Positions 774-64,000 of a stretch of DNA of 64,000 bases are shown here, piece after piece. Every line of letters begins with the position of its first letter. Positions within the stretch are counted from its first letter, which is position 1. The stretch covers positions 53,472 to 117,471 of the forward strand of contig CAKMKG010000011.1 in assembly GCA_927441425.1 (NCBI GenBank). Reading direction: 5' to 3'. A program made the position numbers and the translations under genes. The notes beneath the pieces are model-generated. The model ran no database searches and was not told the DNA's origin. It saw only the letters and a program-made list of their open reading frames with translations. The DNA is from an uncultured Bacillota bacterium. GTDB taxonomy: Bacteria; Bacillota; Clostridia; Peptostreptococcales; Anaerovoracaceae.

Positions 774-3520
774 AGTGGATAAAATCTAGGAACAACCAAA
801 TACTCACCATGGTTATGATTATGATGGCAATCTTGACGATCAGACTCTTTGGGTTAACGGTAGTGGAAGGCAGCCAGTGGGATGAAGCTGCTTCCGGTCT
901 CAGCATAAAAAGCATCAATTCTTCCGCGCCCAGAGGTGAAATTCTGGATCGGTACGGAAGAGTCTTGGCGGGCAATATTCCCAGCTTTACTGTTCAGTTC
1001 AGCGCCGGGGATCTATCCAATGAGCAGATCAACACAGTCTCAAAAAATCTGATCCACATTCTGGAGGTCAATGGAGATGCGTATTATGACAATTTCCCGA
1101 TCTTAATCGAGAACGGCAATTTTGTGTATACCTATCATAAAGATATCAAGGATTGGCTTGCCGCGCAAGCAATGCAGACAGATTATTCGGCAGAGCAGGC
1201 ATTCGACGAGATGAGAAGACGACAGAACATAGAAGAAGGTCTTGATAAATATGGAGCACAAGTGGAGCTTCAAACAGTATATAATATTTTTCCGCCGATT
1301 TCCGTTAAGAACATGAAGTTCTTAAAAGAATTGGATAAAGAAAGCTTTTTGGGCAGATATTATCTTGATACTGATTTAACTGCGGAACAAGCTTTCAATG
1401 CACTCAGAGAAAAGTTTGAGATCTCACCTGCACTGTCTGATACCGAAGCAAGGAAAATTATGGTGGTGCGAAACGAGCTGTCATCCCAAGGTTACCGGAA
1501 ATATATGCCTGCAAAAATTGCTGGCGGTGTTTCAAATAAAACCATCGTGATCATTGAAGAGAAAAATTCTGATCTGCCCGGCGTGGAAGTAGTTGCTGAA
1601 TCCGTAAGATATTATCCCAATGAAAATACCGCTGCCCATGTTTTGGGATATCTGGGGCAGATTTCGGAAAGCGAGAAGGCTTCCTATGATGAAAAAGGCT
1701 ACAAGACCACTGATATGGTTGGTCAGGAAGGAATCGAAAAAGCCTATGAATCTACCCTGAAAGGACAGGATGGTACAAAGAACGTAGAGGTGAATGCCTT
1801 CGGAGAGCTGGTTCGAGTCATTAATGAAACGGAGCCGCAAAAGGGGAAGGATGTTTATTTAACCATCGACCTGGAGCTGCAAAAGACGGCGGAAGCTGCC
1901 TTGCAGCAAGCGCTCACTGAAATTCAAAAAGCCGGAACATTCCAAAGCCAGTGGGGGGATATTAAATACGGAACTGCATATAAAAATGCCAATGTGGGTG
2001 CAGTCGTTGCCCTAGACGTAAAGACAGGCGACGTGCTTGCTATGGCAAGTTACCCGAATTTCAATCCGAATTTATTTGCAACAGGAATCAGCAAGGACGA
2101 CTGGAAGGCCCTACAGGGAGAAAACCTGAGAGATCCTCTGTCACCCTTGCCATTGTTTAACGTAGCAGCCAGAACAGCTGTACAGCCTGGATCGACTTTT
2201 AAGATGGTAACCGCCACCGCCGCATTGGATAGCGGTTTGGATCCAAACAGAAAATTGCGGGATGGAGGTTATGTCAAGTTGGGAAACAGGACTTACGGTT
2301 GTTTGATATGGAACAGAACCAGAGGAAACCACGGATATATCAACCTAATGGAAGCACTGGAAGTATCATGCAATTATTATTTCTTTGATATCGCAACGGG
2401 ACGCGACTTTTATAAAAGGACCTCTCTGGGCTTGAAGGAGCCGATGAATATAGAGAAAATAACATCCTACGCGCAGCAATACGGACTTGGCTTAGAGACA
2501 GGGATAGAGATTCCGGAGACGGTTGTTCCTGTGCCCAGCCAGGAAAGAAAGCTTACTTCGATCAAATCCATGTTGAAAAACGTATTGATTGGTAGAGCAG
2601 AAATCTATTTCAAGAAGTCAATCATTGACGATAAGGCAAAACTGACGGAAAATATCAACACGATTGTAGGCTGGACAGAAGAGAACCCGAGCAGAAACGA
2701 ATTGATTGCACGAGTTGGAAACCTAGGTGTAAAAGAGAATTTGATTGAAACAGTTGTCGACCTCTGTAAGTTTACCTACTTCAATCAGGCAGCATGGACA
2801 ACGGGAGATGAACTAAATATCTCAATCGGTCAGGGAGAGAATGCCTATACACCTTTGCAAATGGCCAATTATGTTGCGACAATCGGTAACAAGGGTGTTC
2901 ATAATCAGGTAAGCCTCATCAAGGCAATCGAAGGGGAAGGCGCCCATGTAAAGGAGCCAGGCAAAAAGATAGATCTGAAAAATGAAAGTGATCTGGATTA
3001 TATTATTGAAGGAATGAAGCTGGTTGCAACAGGGTCAAAAGGTAGCTTAAGAGGAGCGTTTGGCAATTTCCCGGTTCAAGTTGCCGGCAAAACCGGAACC
3101 GCTGAGAGAGCAGGAAAAATCAATCCTCCCGACGAGGTGGAATATATCAAGCAGTATCTTCCTAGAATTAACAGCAGCTTGGTATGGGCTAATGTCGAAA
3201 TGGAATTGAACAGACTGATGAAGGAATATCCTGAAATCTATACAACGAAAAATTATGCGGTTAGACAGGCGGTGATCAATCTGAGCAACGGAAAGGTTAC
3301 CACAGCAAAGATCGATGCTTTTAAGGCCAGCTATGATCCTTTTGCTTGGGTCATGACGCTGGCCCCAGCCGATGATCCTCAAATCGCAGTAGCGGTACTG
3401 TTGTTTCAGGGAGGCACGTCGGGGTATGCCGCGCCGGTAGCACGAGAAGTAATCGGAAAATATCTGCAGCTTGATAAAGCGTATCAGGATTATAGCTTAG
3501 ACACGAAAATCACACAATGA
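770..3520 (+). CDS. mrdA: Penicillin-binding protein 2 (peptidoglycan transpeptidase)
   Basis: PBP dimerisation domain plus transpeptidase motifs (STFK in PGSTFKM, KTGT in AGKTGTAER); overlaps mreD stop. Confidence 0.9.
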   Translation: MKWIKSRNNQILTMVMIMMAILTIRLFGLTVVEGSQWDEAASGLSIKSINSSAPRGEILDRYGRVLAGNIPSFTVQFSAGDLSNEQINTVSKNLIHILEVNGDAYYDNFPILIENGNFVYTYHKDIKDWLAAQAMQTDYSAEQAFDEMRRRQNIEEGLDKYGAQVELQTVYNIFPPISVKNMKFLKELDKESFLGRYYLDTDLTAEQAFNALREKFEISPALSDTEARKIMVVRNELSSQGYRKYMPAKIAGGVSNKTIVIIEEKNSDLPGVEVVAESVRYYPNENTAAHVLGYLGQISESEKASYDEKGYKTTDMVGQEGIEKAYESTLKGQDGTKNVEVNAFGELVRVINETEPQKGKDVYLTIDLELQKTAEAALQQALTEIQKAGTFQSQWGDIKYGTAYKNANVGAVVALDVKTGDVLAMASYPNFNPNLFATGISKDDWKALQGENLRDPLSPLPLFNVAARTAVQPGSTFKMVTATAALDSGLDPNRKLRDGGYVKLGNRTYGCLIWNRTRGNHGYINLMEALEVSCNYYFFDIATGRDFYKRTSLGLKEPMNIEKITSYAQQYGLGLETGIEIPETVVPVPSQERKLTSIKSMLKNVLIGRAEIYFKKSIIDDKAKLTENINTIVGWTEENPSRNELIARVGNLGVKENLIETVVDLCKFTYFNQAAWTTGDELNISIGQGENAYTPLQMANYVATIGNKGVHNQVSLIKAIEGEGAHVKEPGKKIDLKNESDLDYIIEGMKLVATGSKGSLRGAFGNFPVQVAGKTGTAERAGKINPPDEVEYIKQYLPRINSSLVWANVEMELNRLMKEYPEIYTTKNYAVRQAVINLSNGKVTTAKIDAFKASYDPFAWVMTLAPADDPQIAVAVLLFQGGTSGYAAPVAREVIGKYLQLDKAYQDYSLDTKITQ

Positions 3521-3530
3521 GGAGAGAAAA

Positions 3531-4256
3531 ATGGGGAAGGTTATTTTAGTAGCTTCAGGAAAAGGTGGTGTCGGAAAGACGGTTTTTACGTCAAATGCCG
3601 GAGCGAAGCTTGCATTGGAAGGCTATAAGGTTGTCTTGATCGATATGAATATGGGTCTTCGAAACCTTGACATCTGTTTGGGTCTGGAGAATAAAGTGGT
3701 GTATGATGTTGCAGACGTCCTGACCGGTGTATGCAGGATCAAACAGGCATTGATCAAAGATAGGAGGTTTCCGGAGCTTTATTTAATGTCGGCTCCTCAA
3801 AACAAACAGAAAGCAGAAATCACCCCTCTCCACATGAAGGTGTTATGCAATAAATTAAAGAGAAACTTTGATTTTATACTTATCGATGCACCTGCAGGTA
3901 TCGGTGAAGACCTTGTCATTTCAGGCGCTGGAGCAGATTCGGCAGTCATCATAACCGTGCCGGAATATGCTGCAGTAAGAGATGCTGATGCGTTGGATCA
4001 GGTCCTTCTTGAAATAGGTATCAAAAAGAGAACCTATGTTATTAACAAAGTAATTGCTAATTTGATTTGTACAGGGCTTGTTCCTAGCATAGCCGAAATA
4101 GCAGAGGCAATGCGACCCAATATGGCTGGAATCATCCAATATGATGAGAACATCCTCATTGCGGCGAACAACGGCCTGCCTATCGTTTACAGGGAAGGAA
4201 CCTACATAGAAAAGAACTTCAAAAAGATATTGGAACGAATCATCGAAGCATCGTAA
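3531..4256 (+). CDS. minD: MinD-like septum-site ATPase (ParA/MinD family)
   Basis: Deviant Walker A GKGGVGKT, NIDLR-type MinD signature (DMNMGLRNLD), 241 aa. Confidence 0.85.
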   Translation: MGKVILVASGKGGVGKTVFTSNAGAKLALEGYKVVLIDMNMGLRNLDICLGLENKVVYDVADVLTGVCRIKQALIKDRRFPELYLMSAPQNKQKAEITPLHMKVLCNKLKRNFDFILIDAPAGIGEDLVISGAGADSAVIITVPEYAAVRDADALDQVLLEIGIKKRTYVINKVIANLICTGLVPSIAEIAEAMRPNMAGIIQYDENILIAANNGLPIVYREGTYIEKNFKKILERIIEAS

Positions 4257-44238: not shown

Positions 44239-44880
44239 TTATTTTACAATTTGATTTTTCAGCTGCTCAATGGATTTTCTGACAGCAGGTACACTTAGAA
44301 TGATAATTGTTAATGCGCCTTCCACTCCCAAATAGGTAATATTGTAATAAATGGACCATGTAAAGGCACTAAAGCCTTCTGGGGCATACTGTCCGAAGAA
44401 AATAACGCCGGAGAGTACAGAACAGATATAACGGCCAAGCAGACCGACAACATATCCGGAGATCAGGCCGAATTTTCTAGTTCTCATCAAGCCTGCAAAT
44501 GCCAATGCGCCAAAGGCGAGGGGGTAATCCAAAAGCATTTGGATTGGGTGGATGACATAGGGATTGAAAATAAGGTCAAGCAGACCGACGCACATTCCTG
44601 CCATCATACCTCTGCGAACTCCGTATAGGTATGCGCATACGACGATGGGAAGCATGCAGAAGGCTGTGATGGAACCACCCTGAGGCATACGGAACAGGAT
44701 GATTTGATTGAGTGCAATGGAAAGTGCGACGAGAACCGCGGATGTTACCATTGCTTTCGTATCCGCTTTTTTCCCCCGTCCGGAAATGAGGATGCCGAGA
44801 AAAAGCAGCACGATGACGAGTACCGTTGTAACTTGACCTGATGTGGATTCAAAAAAAACCTGTAATTGTTCTGAAGACAT
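44239..44880 (-). CDS. thiT: Energy-coupled thiamine transporter ThiT
   Basis: Multi-TM ThiT-like S component (YGVRRGMMAGMCVGLLDLIFNPYVIHPIQMLLDYPLAF) downstream of a TPP riboswitch; start at 44880 after aaaggagg SD. Confidence 0.88.
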   Translation of the reverse strand: MSSEQLQVFFESTSGQVTTVLVIVLLFLGILISGRGKKADTKAMVTSAVLVALSIALNQIILFRMPQGGSITAFCMLPIVVCAYLYGVRRGMMAGMCVGLLDLIFNPYVIHPIQMLLDYPLAFGALAFAGLMRTRKFGLISGYVVGLLGRYICSVLSGVIFFGQYAPEGFSAFTWSIYYNITYLGVEGALTIIILSVPAVRKSIEQLKNQIVK

Positions 44881-44881
44881 A

Positions 44882-44928
44882 AAAAAACCTCCTTTAAACA
44901 CAAAAGTGTCCGCTTTGCAGGAGGGGAT
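44882..44928 (-). terminator. Expression-platform hairpin of the TPP riboswitch, overlapping the thiT Shine-Dalgarno
   Basis: Minus strand CCTCCT gcaaagcggacacttttgtgtttaa AGGAGG followed by TTTTTTT; the 3' arm is the SD. Confidence 0.6.
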
Positions 44929-44983
44929 CTGTTTGATCGGAAATACAATGCACCCGTAAAAGGTACATCGAAATCAATCAAAA

Positions 44984-45059
44984 ATGCTTCCCTACGCCGG
45001 TATTGCCCGGATCAGGTAATGAGGGTCGAAAAACTCTCAGCTAAAAGCTCCCCTAGCAA
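44984..45059 (-). ncRNA. TPP (THI-box) riboswitch
   Basis: Minus strand ttttgctaggggagcttttagctgagagtttttcgaccctcattacctgatccgggcaataccggcgtagggaagca, matching the THI element (GGGGAGC..CTGAGA..GACCC..ACCTGATCnGG..AATACCnGCGnAGGGAA). Confidence 0.95.
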
Positions 45060-45145
45060 AAGATATTAAATTGATAAAAGTTATTTTATACTGGGCTAGT
45101 TGCAGTGTCAAATACTTTTTTTGAGAATACAGGTCCCAAAAAGTC

Positions 45146-45839: not shown

Positions 45840-47123
45840 TTATTTATTTGCAGCAGCGTGCAGTGCCTTGTCGAAATCTTGAATGATATCCTCAATATCC
45901 TCAATACCGACGGATACGCGTATCATTTCAGGGTAAATACCGGACTCAATCTGCTGCTGCTCGTTCAGCTGTCGGTGTGTTGTGCTTGCCGGATGAAGAA
46001 TACTGGAACGCAAATCGCCAAGATGAACAACCAAATGCACAAGGTCGAGATGCTTGATTAAGTCTTTGCCTGCTTTTGCACCTCCCTTGATTCCAAAACT
46101 CAGGATACCGCTGGCTCCCTTTGGCATATATTTTTGACCTAATTCATAATAGGGATCGCTTTTTAGTCCGGGGTACTTTACCCATTCAACACAAGGATGA
46201 GCGCTTAGAAACTCTGCTAGCTTTAGCGCATTTTCACTATGACGGTCCATTCTTAAATGCAGTGTTTCCAAGCCAAGATGGAACAGGAATGAATTGAAAG
46301 GACTTGGCGTGCAGCCATAATCCCGCAGTAGCTGTACCCGGGCTTTTATAATATAGGCAGAAGGTCCGAAGGTTTCAAAATATTTTAATCCGTGATAACT
46401 CGCATCAGGTTCCACCAGACCCGGAAACTTTCCATTGTCCCAATTGAAATTTCCGCCATCGATGAGAACCCCGCCCAGGCTGGTCGCATGTCCATCCGTA
46501 TATTTTGTTGCCGAATGAATCACAATATTCGCGCCATGGGCAAAGGGCCTGCAAAGATATGGGGTAGCAAGGGTATTGTCAACGAGAAAAGGGATATCGA
46601 GTTTTTGGGCAGCGGAAGAAAATTTCTCAAAATCGAGAACAATCATTCCGGGGTTGGCAATGGTCTCGCCAAAGATTGCCTTTGTGTTCGGTTTCGCACA
46701 GGACAAGATCGATTCCACACTGGAATTGGGGTCAACGAAGGTAAAATCGATTCCAAGCTTTCGCAGCGAAACATCAAATAAATTAAAGGTACCACCGTAA
46801 AGATTGGAGGAGGCGATGACATGATCCCCTGCCTGACAGATATTAAGGATGGCAAACATGCTTGCACTTTGTCCTGAAGAAAGGGCCAGCGCACCGACTC
46901 CGCCTTCGAGAAGATTCATTTTACCTTCAAAGGCATCCGTTGTCGGATTTCCAAGCCTTGTATAGAAGGAACCCTCTGCCTTCAGATCGAACAGATCCGC
47001 AACATAGTCGGAATCATCGTATGAGAAGGTGGTACTTTGGACAATTGGAAGCACTCTTGGTTCTCCAGGCTTTGGACGGTAAGTACCTTGAACGCAATTC
47101 GTATTAAAGTGAAATTTTTTCAT
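45840..47123 (-). CDS. O-acetylhomoserine sulfhydrylase / Cys-Met metabolism PLP enzyme
   Basis: VIHSATKYTDGHATSLGGVLIDGG PLP-lysine motif; N-terminal FNTNCVQGTYRPKPGEPRVLPIVQSTTF. Confidence 0.87.
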   Translation of the reverse strand: MKKFHFNTNCVQGTYRPKPGEPRVLPIVQSTTFSYDDSDYVADLFDLKAEGSFYTRLGNPTTDAFEGKMNLLEGGVGALALSSGQSASMFAILNICQAGDHVIASSNLYGGTFNLFDVSLRKLGIDFTFVDPNSSVESILSCAKPNTKAIFGETIANPGMIVLDFEKFSSAAQKLDIPFLVDNTLATPYLCRPFAHGANIVIHSATKYTDGHATSLGGVLIDGGNFNWDNGKFPGLVEPDASYHGLKYFETFGPSAYIIKARVQLLRDYGCTPSPFNSFLFHLGLETLHLRMDRHSENALKLAEFLSAHPCVEWVKYPGLKSDPYYELGQKYMPKGASGILSFGIKGGAKAGKDLIKHLDLVHLVVHLGDLRSSILHPASTTHRQLNEQQQIESGIYPEMIRVSVGIEDIEDIIQDFDKALHAAANK

Positions 47124-47238
47124 ATTCGTTGCTCTCCTAATCTCGAATTATATAATATTAACATCAAATTGATTTCTTTTGAAACAGCTTGAAATTTTAT
47201 TGAAGATTTAATCATCGCCATGTCTACAAGGATGATGC

Positions 47239-47291
47239 AATGAACGCTTCCTTGCAGAAACGCTGCATCTCAATGTTAGCGTTCATTATAC
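47239..47291 (-). other. Promoter-linked dyad element, copy A (upstream of O-acetylhomoserine sulfhydrylase)
   Basis: Minus strand GGTATAATGAACGCTAACATTGAGATGCAGCGTTTCTGCAAGGAAGCGTTCATT; arms AATGAACGCT/AGCGTTCATT; core conserved with copy B. Confidence 0.55.
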
Positions 47292-47361
47292 CATATATTT
47301 ATCTATTGAAAAACATCAAAATTCTAAAAATTCCGTGTATTGTAAAACAGCCACTTTGCAC

Positions 47362-47390
47362 TTGTCAACTGCCATTCCAATGATTATACT
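47362..47390 (+). promoter_or_regulatory. Putative promoter of NifU-like gene
   Basis: TTGTCA, 17-nt spacer, TATACT. Confidence 0.5.
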
Positions 47391-62769: not shown

Positions 62770-62843
62770 TTGAAGTAAAATGATTTACTGGTATAATGGT
62801 TCTTAATATTGAGATGCAGCGTTGCTGTAAGGTAAGAACCATT
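62770..62843 (+). other. Promoter-linked dyad element, copy B (upstream of pepF)
   Basis: TTGAAG, 16-nt spacer, TATAAT (62792-62797) running into GGTATAATGGTTCTTAATATTGAGATGCAGCGTTGCTGTAAGGTAAGAACCATT; arms AATGGTTCTTA/TAAGAACCATT. Confidence 0.55.
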
Positions 62844-62937
62844 GAATCATGTTTACAGTATCATGTTACATGATATAATAATATTAATTAATAAAGGATA
62901 AAATGTAAATAGAAAAAAGAAAAAAAGGAGATATAGA

Positions 62938-64000
62938 ATGGGAAAAGAAATAAAGACGAGAGATCAGATCGATCCGAAATATAAATGGAAAATTGAAGAA
63001 ATGTACTCGGATGAAGAACAATGGAAAGTAGATTATAAAACGGTGGAAGATAAAGCAAAGGACTTTGCTGCCTACTCGGGCAGATTGGGCGAAAGCCCAC
63101 AGGTTCTTTTAGAAGCACTGCAAAAGAAGGATACGATCTGGCTGATCCTGGAGAAGGTCTATACCTATGCAAGAATGAAAAAGGACGAGGATAACCGAGT
63201 CACTCGATATCAGGCCATGAGCGACAAAGCCGGATCTTTGATTGCGAAAGCCTCCTCATATCTATCCTTTTTTACACCGGAACTGCTGGAAATCCCGGAG
63301 GAAAAATTAAAGGGCTATTTGGAAACGTCTGAGGGTCTAGGGCTCTATAAGCATGCGATCAACGACCTTCTGAGAGAAAAGGCGCACGTTCTTTCCAAAG
63401 CGGAAGAGAATCTTATGGCGCAGTTCAGTGAAATCGCTGGGGCTACCAACGATGTATTCTCCATGATCAACAATGCCGATATCAAGTTTGGAACCATTAT
63501 TGATGAAGACGGAGATGAAGTGGAGGTCACCCACGGCAGATACATCGGTTTTATGGAATCTCATGACCGACGAGTTCGCAAGGATGCCTTCGAGCATATG
63601 TACAAAGCTTTTGGAGATTTGAAAAATACCTTGGCTACAACCTATAACTACAACACGAAAACGGATGTGATCACAGCAAGAATCAGAAAATATAACTCTG
63701 CACGGGAAGCGGCGCTTTCCGGAGACAATGTGCCAACAGAGGTTTATGATAATCTCATTGATACGGTAAACAGCAGGCTCGATCTGCTGCACCGCTATGT
63801 AGAGGTTAGACGGAAATTGCTTAAGGTTGACGAGGTTCATATGTACGATATGTACGTACCGCTTGTTGAGATGCCGTCGGAAGAAATCCCTTATGAAAAA
63901 GCCCTTGATTTGATGCGGGAAGGGCTGACTCCTTTAGGTGACCATTATATCGGAAAAATGAATGAAGGTATCGATGCGGGCTGGATCGATGTTTATGAAA
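62938..64000 (+). CDS. pepF: Oligoendopeptidase F (3' truncated by window edge)
   Basis: Open frame from ATG 62938 after aaaaggag SD to window end; EIKTRDQIDPKYKWKIEEMYSDEEQW and AKASSYLSFFTPELLEI typical of PepF. Confidence 0.88.
   Translation, partial: MGKEIKTRDQIDPKYKWKIEEMYSDEEQWKVDYKTVEDKAKDFAAYSGRLGESPQVLLEALQKKDTIWLILEKVYTYARMKKDEDNRVTRYQAMSDKAGSLIAKASSYLSFFTPELLEIPEEKLKGYLETSEGLGLYKHAINDLLREKAHVLSKAEENLMAQFSEIAGATNDVFSMINNADIKFGTIIDEDGDEVEVTHGRYIGFMESHDRRVRKDAFEHMYKAFGDLKNTLATTYNYNTKTDVITARIRKYNSAREAALSGDNVPTEVYDNLIDTVNSRLDLLHRYVEVRRKLLKVDEVHMYDMYVPLVEMPSEEIPYEKALDLMREGLTPLGDHYIGKMNEGIDAGWIDVYE

Follow-up and report, generated by a model that had tools for sequence, protein, structure and literature searches.

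The closest described systems in form are the BOX elements of Streptococcus pneumoniae, which are modular, dispersed intergenic repeats that form hairpins and carry their internal modules in tandem, and which are over-represented between convergent genes (16 vs 70 upstream of a gene) (PMC3049150). MITEs such as the Correia elements of Neisseria are likewise short, non-coding and dispersed, and are able to supply promoters and transcript hairpins (PMC3049150, PMC10969869). IS200/IS605 elements and REP elements with TnpA-REP insert 3' of a short target, and carry subterminal hairpins and an internal sequence that could pair with the target (PMC5934647, PMC8266576). In riboswitch leaders, covarying hairpins lie upstream of genes that share a pathway. 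In this work, we analysed two hairpins, copies A and B, in a 64,000-nucleotide stretch of DNA from an uncultured Anaerovoracaceae bacterium (the window). The two hairpins are members of a previously undescribed repeat family of about 80 bases, with no earlier description found in the part of the literature covered.

Two hairpin elements in the window

Copy A lies upstream of an O-acetylhomoserine sulfhydrylase (OAHS)-type gene, and copy B upstream of the oligoendopeptidase F gene (pepF). A first-pass annotation had described both as a -10 box followed by a dyad, with a near-identical core and outer arms that differ yet remain self-complementary, and its coordinates and sequence agree with ours. 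The hairpin it placed inside the core is real and closes on a triloop. Its outline of the element covered the first half correctly, while the second half, with another hairpin and another TATAAT, had been missed. Copies A and B are the only matches to the core pattern in the window (at most 3 mismatches; 0.02 expected), and both fold far below shuffles (z -3.9 and -4.1, respectively). The features are as follows, with P1 and P2 denoting the first and second extended -10 boxes.

47231-47294, minus strand: copy A, whole span (sequence)
47285-47293, minus strand: copy A P1, TGGTATAAT, TATAAT at 47290-47285; promoter-like TTTTCA-16-TATAAT, 10/12 with TG
47279-47284, minus strand: copy A outer left arm GAACGC, the first 6 nt of the unit (sequence and family pairing)
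47254-47266, minus strand: copy A inner hairpin GCAGC-GTT-TCTGC (sequence and family pairing)
47242-47247, minus strand: copy A outer right arm GCGTTC (sequence and family pairing)
47232-47241, minus strand: copy A conserved ATTGCATCAT, pairing possible with TGnTATAAT on both sides (sequence)
47236-47211 (within 47206-47236), minus strand: copy A second hairpin ATCATC...GATGAT (sequence)
47206-47214, minus strand: copy A decayed second -10 box, TTAAAT at 47211-47206, joining CTTCAATAAAATT
47339-47368, minus strand: promoter candidate upstream of copy A, TTGACA-18-TACAAT, 11/12, stronger than P1; conserved in genomes G165, G168 and G170
45840-47123, minus strand: gene downstream of copy A, Cys/Met-metabolism PLP enzyme of OAHS type (ORF; PF01053, E=3e-119)
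62788-62851, plus strand: copy B, whole span (sequence)
62789-62797, plus strand: copy B P1, TGGTATAAT, TATAAT at 62792-62797, 16 nt 3' of TTGAAG
62798-62803, plus strand: copy B outer left arm GGTTCT (sequence and family pairing)
62816-62828, plus strand: copy B inner hairpin GCAGC-GTT-GCTGT (sequence and folding)
62835-62840, plus strand: copy B outer right arm AGAACC (sequence and family pairing)
62841-62850, plus strand: copy B conserved ATTGAATCAT (sequence)
62846-62874, plus strand: copy B second hairpin ATCATGT...ACATGAT (sequence; base beside TATAAT paired in 96/100 sites)
62871-62879, plus strand: copy B P2, TGATATAAT, intact, joined to AATATTAAT
62938-64000, plus strand: gene downstream of copy B, pepF, running past the window end (PF08439/PF01432)

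From its sequence, P1 of copy A is read as the native OAHS -10 box. The candidate promoter about 50 bp upstream scores better than this P1, so the whole copy A hairpin could be transcribed. The block at 47316-47368 (minus strand), TTGACAAGTGCAAA...ACAATACACGGAATTTTTAGAATTTT, is kept upstream of OAHS in G165, G168 and G170, while the remaining intergenic DNA is not; it is possibly the main OAHS promoter or an operator. In copy B, a -35 sequence lies inside the second hairpin (TTTACA-16-TATAAT) and is absent from the family consensus. Elsewhere in the window, a TPP riboswitch (RF00059, 65 bits) was found at 44972-45064 (minus strand), upstream of an ORF (44239-44901) resembling a thiamine transporter.

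Size and distribution of the family

The initial searches recovered four copies in the window's genome with a 23-mer pattern and nine, including an adjacent pair, in Sinanaerobacter chloroacetimidivorans (G066; Anaerovoracaceae) with a family search. Covariance model R1, built from the 15-copy alignment A1, gave 23 matches in the window's genome (copies A and B among them), 29 in G129, 83 in G047, 19 in S. chloroacetimidivorans, and 5 in G080. A covariance-model search of this genome and its relatives had been suggested by the first-pass annotation, for which a lack of further copies in related genomes was the first ground for refutation; many further copies were found, and the proposal therefore survives on this point. 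R1 matches occur in 45 of 351 genomes (about an eighth), which belong to 15 of 92 genera of Anaerovoracaceae. In an order-wide sample, all 16 positive genomes were Anaerovoracaceae, and no strong match was found in other families of the order. A strict Rfam 15 scan of the window assigned copies A and B to no family, the TPP riboswitch being the sole match, and a relaxed scan of five element-bearing loci returned nothing credible.

Architecture of the repeat unit

Analysis of 198 units gave the order (TG)nTATAAT, a 6-nt arm, the inner triloop hairpin, AAGGA, the complementary arm, ATTGAAnCAt, the second hairpin, and aTGnTATAAT, with a unit length of about 75-85 bp. The context in which the unit starts is ATGnTATAAT, and the left arm is followed by an internal loop of about ATTGAGA. 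The inner hairpin has four pairs, and its triloop is GTT in 127 of 194 units, with TTT, TTC and ATT also occurring. The far arm of the second hairpin is aTGn, followed by TATAAT and then directly by the next unit or the native leader. The unit thus lies directly 3' of a promoter -10 box and ends in another extended -10 box. The conservation edges are sharp at both TGnTATAAT copies, with P1 conserved over 132 sites, and ATTGAAnCA is able to pair with both.

The outer stem is Watson-Crick paired at 81-94% at positions 1-6 and at 29% at position 7 (195 units), ending after exactly six bases, at the expected transcript start from the first TATAAT. Arms observed with their own complements include GAACGC, GATTCC, GGTTCC, GGTTCT, GAATGC, GAGCGC and GGTCGC. 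TTGACA-like hexamers are enriched 16-18 bp 5' of the first TATAAT, with 11 sites reaching 5/6 or better there and mostly 0-3 at other spacings. In 96/100 sites, the second hairpin covaries with the base 5' of the second TATAAT; for the base 5' of the first, the figure is 81/100, a looser tie that is expected if the first box belongs to the target.

Units accumulate in tandem arrays with a period of about 78 bp and up to nine units, in which neighbouring units are mosaic. At L063 of G047 (3043-3728, minus strand), nine tandem units lie directly 5' of ruvC, which amounts to about ten TATAAT boxes before this gene. A second subtype carries a different 3' module, GCAGATGTAAGAAAATATTCTACAGTCGAATATTTTCTAC, with a 114-bp period (L084 3047-3230; L052 3004-3110). 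At four loci of G071 (L141, L146, L152 and L156), 10-26 bases from the start of the unit often recur in the flank after the last TATAAT, e.g., GAACGCAGCGATTAAAA, as either a further, incomplete unit or a target duplication of greater length. In one subtype, AAGGA is followed by a possible leader peptide (TTG AAT CAT ...); this idea was rejected, as the frame is lost in others.

Position and orientation relative to genes

The context of 132 sites was taken from simple ORF-based gene calls, with neighbours named from Pfam, blastp between loci, and reading of N-termini, and with Pfam for the window's two downstream genes. Flanking genes were arranged same/same at 55 sites, divergent at 62, opposite/opposite at 9, and convergent at 3; the excess of same/same over opposite/opposite gives p=4e-9 under random orientation. 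The downstream gene is co-oriented at nearly all sites, and the next ORF lies a median of 75 bp beyond the last unit. The downstream genes share no pathway and include pepF, ruvC, plsX, aroQ, glnS, metG, lepA and addB, among others, which makes a riboswitch unlikely and lends no support to the earlier suggestion of a leader specific to OAHS or Cys/Met metabolism. Units precede the same gene in different genera or species at plsX, an Fe-alcohol-dehydrogenase-like gene, aroQ and glnS, indicating that many copies are old or have been kept.

Empty and filled promoters

Orthologous promoters were compared at three loci, with OAHS and pepF taken from 14 relatives and plsX from 16. At pepF, TATAATAATATTAA and most of the following leader are common to the window's genus, G066 and G047, the latter two carrying no unit at this locus. 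A native-looking TTGAAG-16-TGGTATAAT lies 5' of copy B, and its final TGATATAAT runs into AATATTAAT, a sequence present in every pepF ortholog of the genus as well as in G066 and G047; after the second TATAAT, 35/36 positions are identical to orthologs without such a unit. G080 and G167 carry a different 3' module at the same position. At plsX, the empty promoter of G150 and the filled one of G071 are identical at 36/39 positions through TATGGTATAAT and then diverge by the unit. At OAHS, the unit...TTAAATCTTCAATAAAATT of copy A corresponds to TGTTATAATCATCAATAAAATT in G165 and G168; the copy A CTTCAATAAAATT matches CATCAATAAAATT after their -10 box, while the left flank of copy A could not be aligned. 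As in MITEs, plsX and pepF therefore show filled sites, in which the target is repeated, beside empty ones; at OAHS this holds on the right side only.

From 5' to 3', a filled site thus consists of the native -35, TGnTATAAT, the unit, a second TGnTATAAT, and the native leader with its gene. The presence of the unit differs between orthologs; at one promoter within the same genus it may be missing, decayed or of another type. The empty sites could also have arisen by precise loss between the repeated TATAAT copies, not by insertion. Target choice by the 6-nt arm was considered and rejected: AATATT, CATCAA and ATAGTG, which follow TATAAT in empty promoters, are unlike the arms GGTTCT, GAACGC and GATTCC. 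Other hairpin arrangements also occur at these genes. The OAHS promoter of G166 (L199), the same promoter as that of copy A, carries a tandem array of shorter units, GAACGCGGGAAGCGTCAATTTCATCACCCATATGGACATGATGGTGATTTAAT, in the last 260 bp before the start, and pepF of G168, G165 and G169 (L219, L220 and L231) has another hairpin, GCAAACC...GGTTTGC, just 5' of the conserved -10 box, with a sequence unrelated to the unit.

Covariation of the stems

In alignment A1, none of 500 shuffles equals the proposed structure in the number of paired cells, in cells altered on both sides, or in covariation score, and slid versions of the structure also fall short of it. Within six genomes, the true left/right arm pairings beat every one of 300 re-pairings. 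At orthologous plsX sites, the arms are GATTCC/GGAATC in G071 and GGTTCC/GGAACC in G149, and both are paired. Together with the Rfam results, these findings bear out the first-pass description of a conserved, covarying structured element of no known riboswitch class.

A stem selected as RNA is expected to show more G-U than A-C intermediates. In raw counts that ignore kinship, G-U and A-C stand at 24:3 in the inner hairpin (pairs 1-4) and 46:10 in pairs 1-5 of the second. Of these 46 G-U, 31 come from the first pair, where the extended -10 motif may favour them. A hairpin of top-strand single-stranded DNA would also tolerate G-T better than A-C, so the G-U excess is no proof of RNA. In the outer stem, the corresponding raw counts, likewise ignoring kinship, are 31:57, and 12:31 among single units. 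The outer stem therefore evolves unlike an RNA helix, and probably is not one, in agreement with its left arm lying between the -10 box and the expected start, where it is probably not transcribed from P1. The same placement, with the apparent insertion at the -10 box seen against empty orthologous promoters, argues against a leader specific to OAHS or Cys/Met. Outer-stem pairing is 0.90 with a close divergent upstream gene vs 0.93 with a co-directional one.

Proposed insertion at -10 boxes and alternative explanations

Taken together, we consider it probable that copies A and B are dispersed, MITE-like two-hairpin elements of Anaerovoracaceae that were inserted at -10 boxes and mobilised by some enzyme. 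Units would spread as DNA by insertion at TATAAT through an enzyme that recognises and acts on hairpins, and its TATAAT specificity would set the orientation to the gene, which explains why this orientation is fixed. The regenerated -10 box would keep the gene expressed, so that insertion would be tolerated. Resident units would equip the gene with extended -10 promoters in tandem and with a 5' leader that bears hairpins, presumably with modest, locus-dependent effects. Like MITEs, the units are short, non-coding and present in many dispersed copies. A search for Y1_Tnp found no autonomous relative sharing terminal inverted repeats, and the arms vary between copies; across the 351 genomes, this search found no transposase tracking the family. 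The element is filed among small interspersed palindromic repeats. A bolder version, which we hold to be quite improbable, is a -10-box-specific mobile element of a new kind, in which the right arm and ATTGAAnCA would form a guide pairing with both TGnTATAAT, at the left junction via hairpin 1 and at the right end via hairpin 2. Any sigma-A promoter could then be a target, and the guide could act in single-stranded DNA or in RNA from the promoter just invaded.

Template switching at replication, in which one arm is copied onto the other, could alone keep the outer arms complementary, leaving the outer stem functionless. Such events have been reported both to create hairpin stems and to preserve them (PMC8794818), and the lack of a G-U excess in the outer stem is in line with this. 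Left unexplained would be why the arm is strictly 6 nt long, why the core is conserved, why TATAAT forms the boundary, and how the family spread. As the sole explanation we regard it as somewhat unlikely; as a process, it is compatible with insertion at -10 boxes.

A domesticated promoter cassette is also unlikely. Here, a selected extended -10 promoter and a structured 5' leader (inner hairpin, AAGGA and second hairpin) would set mRNA stability or output, with copy number tuning expression. The orientation and short distance to the start codon, the retention of P2 as TGnTATAAT, the excess of G-U relative to A-C in both the inner and the second hairpin, and the existence of some sites shared between genera are all consistent with this proposal. 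However, the orientation is equally explained by the target, no common theme links the genes, and the same-genus orthologs that lack the unit, or carry a decayed one or another type, argue against it.

We judge it very improbable that the repeat is a non-autonomous element of the IS200/IS605 or REP type that a Y1 transposase moves in single-stranded form. The arrangement of target, unit and right-end copy of the cleavage site, the subterminal hairpins, and the internal ATTGAAnCA able to pair with both TGnTATAAT fit such an element, and IS608 is known to choose its target by base pairing (PMC5934647). However, Y1_Tnp occurs in 18/45 genomes with the element vs 113/306 without (p=0.74), G071, G066, G343, G285 and G049 have units but no Y1, and no unit lies beside the Y1 genes checked. 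Since Y1_Tnp shows no association, the repeat lacks the transposase link expected of IS200/IS605 or REP/RAYT members. Finally, a Cys/Met- or metabolite-responsive riboswitch-like leader, suggested by the covarying structure upstream of OAHS, is extremely improbable, given the 23 matches upstream of unrelated genes in the window's genome, the OAHS orthologs of most relatives without the element, the left arm probably not transcribed from P1, and the absence of an Rfam match.

Comparison with known systems

If insertion at -10 boxes is correct, landing on a promoter box and rebuilding it would let parasitic DNA spare its host cleanly and would also supply tandem promoters ready for use. It raises the question of which enzyme mobilises the repeat, for which S. 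chloroacetimidivorans, with about 19 matches, offers a culturable carrier for tests. The family also cautions that strong covariation 5' of genes does not necessarily indicate a regulatory RNA: unlike riboswitch leaders, its downstream genes are unrelated and orthologs without the element occur. The resemblance to IS200/IS605 and REP elements lies in how they work only, since there is no Y1 association, the target is a promoter box of 6-9 bp, and the right end repeats the target. Unlike Correia elements and other MITEs, the family has no fixed terminal inverted repeats, is bounded by TATAAT, and has no partner transposase in the search for Y1_Tnp. BOX elements, compared by form and context, remain the nearest counterpart, whereas the present repeat lies between convergent genes at 3 of 132 sites and is tied to the -10 box.
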